Assembly: GCA_037481695.1 (NCBI GenBank)
Contig: JBBFLE010000011.1
Location: 1 to 64,000, forward strand
DNA length: 64,000 bases
Direction: 5' to 3'
Origin: a bacterium
GTDB taxonomy: Bacteria > Desulfobacterota > Desulfocorpusculales > Desulfocorpusculum
Positions within the stretch are counted from its first letter, which is position 1. Each line of letters starts with the position of its first letter. Of the stretch, positions 8,447 through 54,348 are shown one piece after another. The position numbers and the translations under genes are program-made. The notes under the pieces are model-generated. The model ran no database searches, was not told the DNA's origin, and saw nothing but the letters and a program-made list of their open reading frames with translations.

Positions 8447-9280
8447 ATGCCTAAAGTGACCATCACACAGCTACAGAAGATGAAAGAGAGGGGGGAGCGC
8501 ATAAGCATGACCACTGCTTATGACTATCCCACGGCCCACTTCGTGGACAAGGCCGGTATAGAGGTTATCCTGGTGGGGGATTCCTTGGCCATGACAGTAC
8601 TGGGTTTGGATTCCACGGTGCCGGTGACCATGGAAGAGATGATCCACCACATCAGGCCTGTGGTGCGAGGGGCCCCCAATGCCTTGATAGTGGGTGACAT
8701 GCCCTTTGGCTCTTACAATGTTTCATGTGAACAGGCCATAATGAACGCCACCCGCCTGATTAAAGAAGGAGGATGTGATGTGGTTAAGTTGGAAGGAGGC
8801 TCGGAGGTGGCGGACAAGGTCAAAGCCATAGTTGATGGCGGCATTCCGGTGATGGCTCATATAGGCCTTACTCCTCAAACCATATCCAAGCTTGGGGGTT
8901 TCAAGGTGCAAGGAAAGGATCTCCAGGCTGTCAAAAACCTGCTGGAAGGCGCCCTGGCCCTGGAGGAGGCAGGTGCTTTCTCCATGGTCATAGAATGTGT
9001 ACCGGAAGAAGTAGGCAGGCTCATCACCAAGAAACTCAGGATTCCCACCATAGGCATCGGGGCAGGCAGATACTGTGACGGCCAGGTCTTGGTTTTCCAC
9101 GACATGTTGGGCTTGTTCGAGAAATTCCTGCCCAAGTTTGTGAAGCGTTACGCAAACCTGGGACCGGAAGTGATCCGTGCCCTACAGGAGTTCAAACAGG
9201 AGATAAAGCAAGGGAGCTTTCCTTCGGATGAGTTTGTGTTCGGAGGCGTAACACAAGAGGACTTAAGAGCCTTGTACTGA
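8447..9280 (+). CDS. panB: 3-methyl-2-oxobutanoate hydroxymethyltransferase (first of two PanB proteins)
   Basis: The enzyme adds a hydroxymethyl group from methylene-tetrahydrofolate to 2-oxoisovalerate, giving ketopantoate for coenzyme A synthesis. The 277-residue protein shows all active-site motifs: TTAYDYPTA near 21, VGDSLAM (metal Asp) near 44, GDMPFGSY (metal Asp) near 83, VKLEGG (Lys and Glu) near 111, AHIGLTPQ near 135 and the catalytic Glu in IECVPEEVG near 180. ATG 8447 is chosen because AGGAGG at 8434-8439 is 7 bases away. The next gene encodes a ketopantoate reductase, so this is the biosynthetic PanB, in contrast to the paralogue at 17070. Confidence 0.93.
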   Translation: MPKVTITQLQKMKERGERISMTTAYDYPTAHFVDKAGIEVILVGDSLAMTVLGLDSTVPVTMEEMIHHIRPVVRGAPNALIVGDMPFGSYNVSCEQAIMNATRLIKEGGCDVVKLEGGSEVADKVKAIVDGGIPVMAHIGLTPQTISKLGGFKVQGKDLQAVKNLLEGALALEEAGAFSMVIECVPEEVGRLITKKLRIPTIGIGAGRYCDGQVLVFHDMLGLFEKFLPKFVKRYANLGPEVIRALQEFKQEIKQGSFPSDEFVFGGVTQEDLRALY

Positions 9281-49934: not shown

Positions 49935-50300
49935 TCACGTCCCCACTCGAGCGAGGAGCTCCTCTACCAGCTCCCTGATCTTCTCTTTGGCTTCGGCGAG
50001 GGCCTCGCGGCCCTTGGGTGTGGCCAGGTAATATCTCCTCAGCTTGCCCTCCACCACCTCGCCGCGGCTTGCCAGGTATCCGTGCTCCTCCAGGCCGTGC
50101 AGAATGGGGTAAAGGGTCCCCGGGCTCAAGTTATACCCATGCCGGGCGAGTTCCTCCTTGATGCCCGTGCCATAGATGGGCCCCTCACAGGCGTGATGCA
50201 GGATGTGGATGCGCACAAACCCCAAGAAAAAGAACTGCAGCATACGACTCCCGCCGCCGTCTTCTCTACCTTTTCCGGTGACCATCTGGGATTCTCTCAT
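49935..50300 (-). CDS. PadR-family transcriptional regulator
   Basis: The 121-residue protein has the winged-helix core of PadR: FFFLGFVRIHILHHACEGPIYGTGIKEELA near 22-50, then LSPGTLYPILHGLEEHGYLAS, KLRRYYLATPKGREALAEA and a C-terminal helix. ATG 50300 has GGAGG 6-7 bases upstream and overlaps the stop of the TauE gene, so the two are cotranscribed. The inverted repeat at 51139-51157 over the operon promoter is its likely binding site, giving autoregulation. The ligand is unknown; the TauE partner suggests a sulfur compound. Confidence 0.87.
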   Translation of the reverse strand: MRESQMVTGKGREDGGGSRMLQFFFLGFVRIHILHHACEGPIYGTGIKEELARHGYNLSPGTLYPILHGLEEHGYLASRGEVVEGKLRRYYLATPKGREALAEAKEKIRELVEELLARVGT

Positions 50301-51097
50301 ATTAGTCCTCCCATCAATCCCAGGGCAACCAGCAGCAACAGACCTCCAACGATGATTTGCACGGCCCTCATGGTCACCTTCTTCATGAGACGCGTCCCCA
50401 TGAAGGCCCCTGCGAATGCGGCCAGTGTAGTCAAAGCCACGATTCCTAGACCACCAGCCTCTTTGATCGACTGGAAGTGGTCCAGGAAGAAGGCCACCCC
50501 GTATGTTGCAAGACGCGTCACATCCACCACCACCGCGCATACAACACCGGTGGTGATAAAGGCTTCCTTTCCAAGCCCGCACTTCAGAAGCACTGCCGAA
50601 CGCAACGCCCCCTGATGGCCCGAGAGCCCTCCGAAGAACCCCGAGAGTGCTCCGCCCAATGGGAGGTGCCTTTTATCCAGTCTGATCCGGGCCTCCAGGC
50701 TCGGGGCCAGCTCCAGAACAGCAAAGGCGGCGATGAGTGCGCCCAGGACCAGCTTCACAAGGGAGACCTGGAAGGTGCTCCCCGCCAACGTGTAGCTCCC
50801 AATCGCAGGGAAGTGCGCCAATGCGGTGAGAAGCCATGCGCCGGCTATTGCCGCCAGTGCTCCAGGAAGGGCGAAGCGAGCCACAACGCCCCAGTCCGCG
50901 CGGCGGCCCAGGAGCGCCAGCTTGAATAGGTTGTTGGCCAGGTGTACCACCCCGGTGGCGGCCACGGCCACCTCAACGGGAAAGAAGATGGCGAATGCTG
51001 GCATGAGAATGGTGCCCAGGCCAAATCCCGAGAAAAGGGTCAATCCGGATGCTGTCAGGGCCACCAGGGGCAGAAGCAATTGGGATAGGCTTAACAT
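50297..51097 (-). CDS. TauE/SafE family membrane permease (putative sulfite/organosulfonate exporter)
   Basis: The 266-residue protein has about eight hydrophobic segments and the family pattern. It begins LLPLVALTASGLTLFSGFGLGTILMPAFAIFFPV and has VHLANNLFKLALLGRRADW near 52. GALSGFFGGLSGHQGALRSAVL is near 147 and MGTRLMKKVTMRAVQIIVGGLLL is at the end. Family members are linked to export of sulfite, sulfoacetate or other sulfur anions. ATG 51097 is used; TTG 51103 is 6 bases nearer the AAGG ribosome-binding site and also possible. It leads the operon with padR. Confidence 0.85.
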   Translation of the reverse strand: MLSLSQLLLPLVALTASGLTLFSGFGLGTILMPAFAIFFPVEVAVAATGVVHLANNLFKLALLGRRADWGVVARFALPGALAAIAGAWLLTALAHFPAIGSYTLAGSTFQVSLVKLVLGALIAAFAVLELAPSLEARIRLDKRHLPLGGALSGFFGGLSGHQGALRSAVLLKCGLGKEAFITTGVVCAVVVDVTRLATYGVAFFLDHFQSIKEAGGLGIVALTTLAAFAGAFMGTRLMKKVTMRAVQIIVGGLLLLVALGLMGGLI

Positions 51098-51138
51098 ATG
51101 CAAGGGACCTTAATAAACGGATATAGATATCGTTTTAC

Positions 51139-51296: not shown

Positions 51297-51800
51297 TCAG
51301 ATTTTTTGTGCCCGGATCCCTGAGTAAACAGCCTTGCAGATTCCAGACACGCCGCCTTTGAGTCCTTGGGGGTTCTTGAAGCCCTCTGTGGCGCGGAGGC
51401 TTTCCAGGTAGGAGTCCGCATCCAGGAATGCCGCGGCCTCTTGGGATTCCCCGGTCACGATCTTGAAGAGCCAGCCCCCGCCGTATGGTTCTTGGTTTAC
51501 CAAGGAGGGCTCCTCTTTGGCCTTGCCATTGTAATTTATCCTGCCCGAGAGCGGCGACTCGATGTACATTATTTTTGCCGTGATGGCAAAGGCCACGCTG
51601 GCGCCTTTCTCGACAGCCTCTCCATCCGAGGCCAGCCAGTCCAGTCCGTTGATACCCCCCAACAGGACCAGTGCAGGCTCGCTCAGGCCAAAGGTGAATG
51701 CCGAACCATCCCTCATCACCCAAAGACCCTGCTTGCCCTCATATTGACGGTCCTCGGGTATTTGCACGCGTTTTCCGAGGAATTTCTCGATAATGGCCAT
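51297..51800 (-). CDS. atypical GcvH-like lipoyl-domain protein
   Basis: The 167-residue protein resembles glycine cleavage H protein: FTFGLSEPALVLLGGINGLDWL near 36-57, GEAVEKGASVAFAITAKIMYI, SPLSGRINYN, EEPSLVNQEPYGGGWLFKIV and DADSYLESL. The lipoyl Lys of normal GcvH is eight residues before the Pro of SPxSG; here the only candidate Lys (TAKIM) is seven before, implying a one-residue deletion. A C-terminal extension of about 25 residues has one Cys (GGVSGICKAVYSG). GGAGGG precedes ATG 51800. No gcvT or gcvP is near, so a role outside glycine cleavage, perhaps lipoate-linked sulfur chemistry, is possible but inferred. Confidence 0.75.
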   Translation of the reverse strand: MAIIEKFLGKRVQIPEDRQYEGKQGLWVMRDGSAFTFGLSEPALVLLGGINGLDWLASDGEAVEKGASVAFAITAKIMYIESPLSGRINYNGKAKEEPSLVNQEPYGGGWLFKIVTGESQEAAAFLDADSYLESLRATEGFKNPQGLKGGVSGICKAVYSGIRAQKI

Positions 51801-52356: not shown

Positions 52357-52638
52357 CTAGGGCTGCGGTTTGAGAGGGTCTAGATGACGGCATATGGCTT
52401 TCTCCAGCTCATCTTGGCCAATGTCTGACCCTTGTATCACCACCTCATCGCCAACCATAATGGCCGGGGCAGCGGGAAGGCCCGACTCCAAGTACTGGGG
52501 GCTCTGGTAATGAGCCCTGGGATTGGATCTCAGTTGGATCTCAATGGGGTACTTGACATCCAGCCTGGGGGCCATTTCCTTGAAATGGGTTCACGTTTTG
52601 CCACTTGGTTCGTTCAGAAAAAAAACTACCTTTAACAT
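52357..52638 (-). CDS. thioredoxin-fold protein with in-frame TGA, candidate selenoprotein
   Basis: AGGAGG (52644-52649) lies 5 bases before ATG 52638. The frame reads MLKVVFFLNEPSGKT, then TGA (52591-52593) as codon 16, then THFKEMAPRLDVKYPIEIQL and a thioredoxin-like half with the cis-Pro segment GLPAAPAIMVGDEVVIQGSD. It ends at 52357. The TGA falls after the first beta strand, where thioredoxin-fold proteins carry the redox Cys. Reading it as selenocysteine gives a complete 93-residue protein; ending there would leave a 15-residue peptide. A perfect 7-bp hairpin starts two bases after the TGA. The alternative is an inactivated gene, or a start at ATG 52575 that lacks the active site. No sel genes are in the window. 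Confidence 0.6.
52572..52588 (-). promoter_or_regulatory. hairpin directly downstream of the in-frame TGA (SECIS-like candidate)
   Basis: On the mRNA, CCAUUUC pairs perfectly with GAAAUGG around an AAG loop, two bases after the UGA. The loop contains a G, but it lies closer to UGA than the usual bacterial SECIS, so its role is uncertain. Confidence 0.35.
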
Positions 52639-52652
52639 CTCATCCTCCTGTT

Positions 52653-52821
52653 TCAAGGCTTGCCCATGCAGGGCATTGTGATCCGGTTCAGAAACTGATC
52701 TGGCAGGATGTAGTCCAGGAATTTCACATGTATTCTATCCTTCTCAGCTGTGTCAAGAAAAAAACACCCCAATCTCCAACCACACAGGCAAAATTGCCTC
52801 TGGTAGAATAAGACACTCCAC
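52653..52821 (-). pseudogene. small hypothetical protein, probable frameshift
   Basis: One frame reads ECLILPEAILPVWLEIGVFF up to a poly-T tract (seven A at 52758-52764 on the plus strand). A second frame continues as LDTAEKDRIHVKFLDYILPD and then QFLNRITMPCMGKP, with its stop 5 bases before the ribosome-binding site of the thioredoxin-like gene. Removing one base of the run would join them into a protein of about 55 residues from GTG 52821. The two halves look more protein-like together than either full frame alone. No family is recognised. Confidence 0.3.
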
Positions 52822-52883: not shown

Positions 52884-53396
52884 TTATTGAGACGGCAAAA
52901 CAGATGAGCCGCATTCCCCAGGATCCCCATGGATCTTTTCCAGGGCGTGCGGTATGGCCGGGAGCAAAACCAAGAGGTTTTCCCTTACTGCCTTAGGACT
53001 TCCTGGGAGGTTCACCACTAAAGTCTTTTTCCTTAAGCCCACTAGGCCCCGAGAGAGCATGGCATGGGGTGTCTTGGACATGGAGGCCGAGCGCATGGCC
53101 TCTGCCATGCCAGGTATTTCCTTTTCCAGCAAAGGCCTTGTGGCCTCCGGTGTCACATCTCTTGGATGAACTCCGGTGCCACCTGTCGTGATGATCAGGT
53201 CCACTTCCTCTGTGTCAGCCCACTCTATTATGGCCTTCTGGATTTCAAACACCTCGTCCGGGACCACCCGGTAATGCTCAAGCCTTGCACCCAGAGGCTC
53301 AAGGAGTTCCCTTATGGCCGGAGCGCTCAGGTCCTCTCTGATGCCTGCAGCCCCACGGTCGCTGACCGTCAGAACCGCATATCTAAAAGAGCTCAT
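52884..53396 (-). CDS. mog: molybdopterin adenylyltransferase-like protein (MogA/MoaB)
   Basis: This enzyme activates molybdopterin with AMP before molybdenum insertion. The 170-residue protein has the MoCF-domain motifs: YAVLTVSDRGAAGIREDLSAP near 6-26, VDLIITTGGTGVHPRDVTPEAT near 67-88 and VVNLPGSPKAVREN near 130. ATG 53396 overlaps the end of the MOSC gene. Together they form a molybdenum-cofactor pair, implying molybdo- or tungsto-enzymes elsewhere in the genome. Whether it acts as MogA or MoaB cannot be decided. Confidence 0.9.
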   Translation of the reverse strand: MSSFRYAVLTVSDRGAAGIREDLSAPAIRELLEPLGARLEHYRVVPDEVFEIQKAIIEWADTEEVDLIITTGGTGVHPRDVTPEATRPLLEKEIPGMAEAMRSASMSKTPHAMLSRGLVGLRKKTLVVNLPGSPKAVRENLLVLLPAIPHALEKIHGDPGECGSSVLPSQ

Positions 53397-53866
53397 CCGG
53401 GCCTCTCTTTTTCCACCTGGATCAGGTCTCCGGCCTTGACCACTCCGCCCCTTATCACCCTGGCGAATATTCCCTCGGTGGGCATTATGCACTGGCCCAC
53501 CTGCTGAAATATGGCGCAGCCGGAGTGGCACTGCTTGCCGATCTGGGTTATTTCCAAGACCGCCTCACTGCCCACTTTCAGGCGGGTTCCTATGGGCAGA
53601 CTAAGCAGGTCCAGGCCTTCAGTAGTTATGTTCTCAGCAAAGTCTCCAGGCCTGACATCCAAGCCTTTGCCTTGCATCTTCTTGATGCTCTCCATGCCCA
53701 GGAGGCTCACCTGTCTGTGCCAGGCCCCGGCATGGGCGTCCCCCTCGGCGCCCCACTCCACCAAAAGATGCAACTCCTCCACGTTTCTTTTGGGCACGCC
53801 CTTTTCGTCGCTGATGGACACCTGCAACACCCTGGCCTGCCTGCTCTTGTTCATGTTGCTTGTCAT
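53393..53866 (-). CDS. MOSC-domain protein
   Basis: The 157-residue protein has the MOSC fold found in molybdenum-cofactor sulfurases and related proteins. Visible features are ARVLQVSISDEKGVPKR near 9, VEWGAEGDAHAGAWHRQVSLLG near 33, PGDFAENITTEGLDLLSLPIG near 70 and the conserved Cys in GKQCHSGC near 107. Free-standing MOSC proteins probably bind or carry sulfur for the cofactor. ATG 53866 overlaps the stop of the upstream gene (ATGA). Mog follows with another ATGA overlap, so all three are translationally coupled. Confidence 0.87.
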   Translation of the reverse strand: MTSNMNKSRQARVLQVSISDEKGVPKRNVEELHLLVEWGAEGDAHAGAWHRQVSLLGMESIKKMQGKGLDVRPGDFAENITTEGLDLLSLPIGTRLKVGSEAVLEITQIGKQCHSGCAIFQQVGQCIMPTEGIFARVIRGGVVKAGDLIQVEKERPG

Positions 53867-54348
53867 GTCTTTCGCTCTACCATGAGCTTCTTGGCGGCCA
53901 CCACCACAGGATTGGGAAGGTTTCTGGATCTGGCCACCTCCTTGAGCTCCTTTTCCCTCAGGTGGCCAAGCAGCCTCAGGCTTTCTTTCACCGGAGTCCT
54001 GGGATTGTTCACAAGGGCTACTTTCACGGAATAATACTTGAGCCAATCCCTGTTCTTGAGTATGAGTCGGAGCACTTCCTCATCCACACTTCGAGAGGCT
54101 GCTATACGCTCTATCTCTTTTTCCGTGATCCTCGGGTTCTGGATAACAGATACCTGAACTGATCTCACAGGATCCCTGATGAGGATAGAGCGAACCTCCC
54201 GGTTGCCCAAAAGAGCCAGCTTCATCCTTTCAGCCACTGTCATTCGCTGAATCTGCAATAGCAGTGTAGCTCTCTCTTGGTCATTCCCGGGTTGAGCCTC
54301 TGCCAGCTGACGGATCTTGGTATCAGATGATTGCTCCTCAGGTTCCAT
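53863..54348 (-). CDS. conserved hypothetical helical-repeat protein
   Basis: The 161-residue protein is built of short helical repeats of the form LLGNREVRSILIRDPVRSVQ, VSVIQNPRITEKEIERIAAS and KVALVNNPRTPVKESLRLLG. This resembles HEAT-like or leucine-rich-variant repeats. I know similar conserved hypothetical proteins from delta-proteobacterial genomes, without a function. ATG 54348 is preceded by GGTGGGG; GTG 54381 is an alternative start. It is coupled to the MOSC and mog genes by ATGA overlaps. Confidence 0.7.
   Translation of the reverse strand: MEPEEQSSDTKIRQLAEAQPGNDQERATLLLQIQRMTVAERMKLALLGNREVRSILIRDPVRSVQVSVIQNPRITEKEIERIAASRSVDEEVLRLILKNRDWLKYYSVKVALVNNPRTPVKESLRLLGHLREKELKEVARSRNLPNPVVVAAKKLMVERKT

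Follow-up and report, generated by a model that had tools for sequence, protein, structure and literature searches.

The window (the whole 64-kb stretch of DNA analysed here) belongs to a genome of 4.1 Mb in 52 contigs. It carries the small gene tsoC on the minus strand, together with the remains of an operon. The features are as follows:

52357..52638, minus strand: tsoC, 93 codons with UGA (Sec) at codon 16 and a TAG stop, identified by the NF045708 match and the translation
52591..52593, minus strand: in-frame TGA, selenocysteine codon by descent, with TGA at the aligned codon in readable TsoC relatives and Cys in a distant homologue
52644..52649, minus strand: ribosome-binding site AGGAGG (AGGAGG-ATGAG-ATG), five bases 5' of the tsoC ATG
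52572..52588, minus strand: 7-bp hairpin CCATTTC-AAG-GAAATGG, starting two bases after the TGA; not the SECIS
52557..52571, minus strand: position of the apical stem of the family SECIS, CCCCCA-GGC-UGGAUG in the window, with the pairs C.A and C.U broken
52677..52760, minus strand: remnant of the C-terminal end of tsoB (FLDTAEKDRIHVKFLDYILPDQFLNRIT), 39% identical to TsoB over its final 28 residues
51897..52251, minus strand: pseudogene of a TVP38/DedA-like membrane protein, recognized by a profile match, with pieces in different frames
51297..51800, minus strand: gene for a GcvH-related protein (NF045810, 234.9 bits against a cut-off of 150), intact and of a kind that belongs to some Tso operons

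Other neighbours in the window include a TauE/SafE exporter gene (50297-51103), a MoCF (MogA/MoaB-like) gene (52884-53531) and a MOSC gene (53393-54046). For the MoCF and MOSC genes, no matching gene turned up close to tsoC in those relatives with which the window was compared.

Translation of the minus strand from 52638 to 52357 gave MLKVVFFLNEPSGKT*THFKEMAPRLDVKYPIEIQLRSNPRAHYQSPQYLESGLPAAPAIMVGDEVVIQGSDIGQDELEKAICRHLDPLKPQP*, in which codon 16 is TGA and the final codon is TAG; around the internal stop, the gene reads MLKVVFFLNEPSGKT-TGA-THFKEM…KPQP-TAG. An earlier note on this DNA had described a frame with a single TGA at codon 16, which was confirmed by this translation, and had left its strand unstated. 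The other 92 codons contain no indel or extra stop. The strong ribosome-binding site claimed ahead of the frame is also present; exact strings of this site plus ATG are common in the window (14 found, 9.6 expected), and therefore the site alone is weak evidence. The sole ORF obtained here by standard ORF calling has 72 residues, opens at ATG 52575 and lacks the active site, just as had been predicted for a standard annotation.

The 93-residue product was searched with Cys in place of the TGA. Residues 2-87 matched the family model NF045708 ("NEPxGxxU motif selenoprotein TsoC") over model positions 1-86 of 87, across the TGA, with 129.4 bits (cut-off 45) and E = 3.6e-38, which places the frame far beyond chance; scored directly on the DNA, the match reached 121.5 bits with 1 TGA. 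The family motif is present as NEPSGKT-TGA, the TGA being at the U codon. TsoC is listed in a 2026 review with the motif GxxU and Sec in the second position (PMC13188914), and Tso stands for "three selenoprotein operon" (Haft & Tolstoy 2025, as cited in PMC13188914). TsoB is annotated as rhodanese/DsbD-like. The Pfam search of the product gave a weak match to Thioredoxin_3 (E = 0.077), and the Rfam search at a permissive threshold gave chance matches only. Judged by the family model, the window gene is tsoC, a member of an already described selenoprotein family, and so the candidate selenoprotein of the earlier note is not a new one. The claim of a thioredoxin-fold gene with a selenocysteine TGA was upheld by descent, that is, by the family model, by the same codon in readable relatives and by the Sec machinery of the genome.

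Of the 395 genomes covered by the phylum search, 30 have TsoC. Exactly one TGA was present in 40 of the 41 matches, and TGA stood at the aligned codon wherever the site was read out. A single-sequence scan of the genome contigs found no TsoC loci; a second scan, with an alignment query limited to the residues after the TGA, found 80. The DNA pattern of the second scan (LPxAPA[VI]M) did not include the Sec codon, and thus the scan could not favour TGA. The motif-bearing reads had TGA in 95/95 cases; one regex match among them (L158, TGA index 6345) was later removed because it was spurious in the tree. Four further relatives with an NLPNGxPU motif also carry TGA, and two others are cut or broken ahead of the Sec site. 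In the alignment with homologues, which had been suggested earlier as a check, TGA occupies the Sec codon in all readable TsoC relatives (about 110 distinct genes), and the distant homologue L055 (genome G006; 31 bits, below the cut-off) has Cys at this position (NNPMGVRC). A Sec codon shows such conservation, a decaying stop does not. As read from this alignment, the UGA at codon 16 codes for selenocysteine by descent. A divergent family member, L054 of genome G128 (NHPPGRRU, 61 bits), also carries TGA; its genome lacks TsoA and has only weak matches to the TsoB model. Two tandem tsoC copies also occur (L028, L029, L030, L031, L034, L039 and L048), and the second type often has an NDPCGLTU motif.

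Absence of the selenocysteine machinery had been named in the earlier note as a reason to abandon its reading. The window's genome contains selA (595 bits), selB (370 bits), tRNA-Sec(UCA) (anticodon tca, 74.6 bits with the RF01852 model) and selD (381 bits; L086, G000:C3:67670-68590). Two lower-scoring matches of the tRNA-Sec model in this genome were assigned by ARAGORN to tRNA-Ser and tRNA-Cys. The selD gene is itself interrupted in frame by a TGA, with a strong stem-loop behind it, and so there is a second Sec gene in this genome, one for a Sec-containing SelD.

The hairpin to which the earlier note drew attention does exist, with 7 perfect pairs two bases after the TGA, but it is not the SECIS. 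The 64 kb contain 11 perfect hairpins of 7 bp with a 3-nt loop, and thus its presence is unremarkable. Its loop lies 9 nt after the UGA and has its G in the third position; the published bSECIS model has G in the first two loop positions, a spacing of 16-37 nt, an upper stem of at least 4 bp and MFE <= -7.5 (PMC13188914). Among 38 phylum copies, the hairpin is perfect in the window copy only, and its paired cells and covariation score are no higher than in shuffles. It was therefore ruled out as too close to the UGA, outside the bSECIS model, unconserved and without covariation.

Another stem-loop, …GCCCA-GGY-UGGGC…, is conserved in the relatives, and 25 nt separate the UGA from its loop. This stem is paired in 84% of cells compared with 79% in shuffles (0/500 shuffles as high), its covariation score is 0.190 compared with 0.117 in shuffles, and pairing falls to 28-45% when the stem is slid. 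The Arg codon over the apex is AGG in 96/96 cases; of the 259 Arg codons at other places in these genes, 39 are AGG. The simple bSECIS criteria of stem, loop and spacing are passed by 76% of the control positions taken from these genes; being so lax, they are supportive only, and the case for the SECIS rests on the covariation and the AGG codon. At the family site, the window copy agrees with the bSECIS model in loop and spacing and has 2 mismatches in the stem, and its local fold of -5.2 kcal/mol is the third weakest of 112. Two adjacent broken pairs were found in the window copy only among 113 sequences. A TsoA copy in a relative likewise fails the simple criteria. The fair reading of the window copy is that its SECIS is weakened rather than abolished.

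The gene order in relatives is tsoA-tsoB-tsoC(-tsoC)-TVP38-like, with a GcvH-related gene in some. The remains in the window keep this order and spacing; whereas tsoA is lacking, tsoB is reduced to a tail relic and the TVP38-like gene is a pseudogene. TsoA was not found in the window's genome with the model that finds it in 24 of the 30 TsoC-bearing genomes, and no TsoB above the cut-off was found there, the C-terminal relic beside tsoC being the only trace. A three-selenoprotein operon with tsoA and tsoB beside tsoC is therefore not present at this locus, and some relatives also lack tsoA/tsoB. The tsoB relic is the best frame in the whole window with the TsoB C-terminal profile (E = 0.0026 for a short match of 28 residues), and its spacing to tsoC is within the range of the relatives (mostly 32-56 nt). 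In the TVP38 pseudogene, an N-terminal piece (52251-52141) and a C-terminal piece in another frame (52085-51909; profile E = 6.9e-14) are left, and about 130 residues of the middle are missing. Annotation may call spurious ORFs in this decayed gene. A Fer4_5 match in the same stretch was taken as a chance out-of-frame match, since the stretch aligns to TVP38. Median identity to the relatives, compared with that among the relatives, is 51% and 69% for the TVP38 relic and 36% and 61% for the TsoB relic; the corresponding values are 53% and 66% for TsoC, and 55% and 56% for the GcvH-related gene. The latter, found beside tsoC in about ten relatives, is as conserved as in these relatives despite the decay of most of the operon. 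Judged by these remains, the locus is an eroded Tso operon. Indels and decay, which the earlier note had listed as signs against its reading, are absent inside tsoC and present in the neighbours tsoB and TVP38, where they had been overlooked.

The described TsoC family and the window gene share a full-length match above the cut-off, the NEPxGxxU motif, TGA at the Sec codon and a thioredoxin-like fold. They differ in that the window's genome has no tsoA/tsoB beyond the tsoB tail, the SECIS stem has two mismatches and the branch is long. These differences bear on whether tsoC is still functional. It might be a very young pseudogene with a nonfunctional SECIS, in which the UGA ends a peptide of 15 residues and the frame is intact only by recency. 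The destruction of tsoB and TVP38 and the loss of tsoA fit this explanation, as does the SECIS site, since a G loop on a stem of at least 4 pairs stands at the proper distance in all of the 112 copies but this one. The TsoC end branch (0.82, compared with a median of 0.13) points the same way, being only indicative with so few columns. Also against a living tsoC are the lowered identity of TsoC to its relatives, next to the normal value of the GcvH-related gene, and the single strongly conserved residue that it has lost, a change of Gly to Asp at the very codon where the SECIS is broken. However, the intact frame with its good ribosome-binding site also keeps 21/22 of the columns conserved at 90% or more, and the gene differs from its relatives mainly at third codon positions. 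Moreover, in genome G294 a tsoC with an intact SECIS stands by itself between P-type ATPase and sensor kinase genes (L067, about 8600-8880), without TsoA or full TsoB, which shows that tsoC can persist alone. If the ribosome is assumed to occupy the first 11 bases, so that the 5' part is melted, a 3-bp GGC-loop helix, a 2x2 internal loop and a 4-bp lower stem could still form (-5.2 kcal/mol). A young pseudogene thus keeps a substantial minority of the probability, and the balance leans modestly towards a tsoC that is still decoded as a selenoprotein. Rather tentatively, the gene might have been caught at its loss, with the RNA signal decaying before the coding sequence and the partners gone; or a lone TsoC might be working with an altered SECIS that contains an internal loop.

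An ordinary stop is very unlikely: the 72-residue ORF from ATG 52575, which standard ORF calling does yield, would alone be real and the upstream similarity incidental, whereas the model match spans the TGA, and N9, P11 and G13 before it are invariant in 46 sequences. A sequencing error, by which a Cys codon (TGC/TGT) was read as TGA, could be imagined for a sequence from a single genome and is the most improbable explanation, as every readable relative, across many independent assemblies, has this TGA too.

The AlphaFold2 model of TsoC (pLDDT 84.5; E2-7 H18-29 E32-37 H41-44 H47-52 E59-62 E65-69 H75-86) fits the thioredoxin fold beta-alpha-beta ... beta-beta-alpha, with a Pro before strand 3. 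Among the best Foldseek matches in the PDB are thioredoxins and SelW-like proteins (E about 0.004-0.03), and also ArsD, all with modest E-values. The thioredoxin-like fold is common to the MTH895/ArsE-type (TIGR00412; PDB 1ilo) and SelW-like (PDB 2fa8) proteins, with Foldseek probabilities of 0.99-1.00; whereas the window TsoC scores 16.3 bits against the TIGR00412 cut-off of 62, has no CxxC and reaches Foldseek E-values of only about 0.01. The assignment of the TGA to the first redox residue became uncertain, because the GxxU motif has Sec in the second position (PMC13188914) and the model places it two residues ahead of helix 1. Apart from this residue, TsoC has no invariant Cys (the Cys of 'ICRHL' is present in 73% of copies), which suggests that the protein probably acts as a single selenol.

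A possible mechanism can be proposed from these data. The UGA at codon 16 was inherited from the Tso operon of Desulfobacterota-type bacteria. The product would be a small protein of thioredoxin fold that has one redox selenol, at the N-terminal end of helix 1, and lacks an invariant Cys as its partner. SelB with Sec-tRNA(UCA) would bind the stem-loop with the G-G loop 25 nt downstream of the UGA, and insert Sec. The operon has eroded until tsoC and the GcvH-related gene alone were intact, with tsoA lost, tsoB left as a tail and TVP38 as a pseudogene. With the weakened SECIS, Sec is probably still inserted, presumably less efficiently. TsoC might serve the rhodanese/DsbD-like TsoB as its partner in a selenol relay. 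The preferred reading, a tsoC with an inherited Sec codon in an eroded operon, with a weakened SECIS at which Sec is probably inserted less efficiently, is given a probability of about 0.82.

What the analysis adds for this described family is where the true SECIS lies, how it is damaged in the window copy and that the operon has decayed. The position of the true TsoC SECIS is shown by covariation and codon bias. Moreover, the locus provides a natural test of how a multi-selenoprotein operon comes to be lost, and of whether tsoC could function without tsoA and tsoB.
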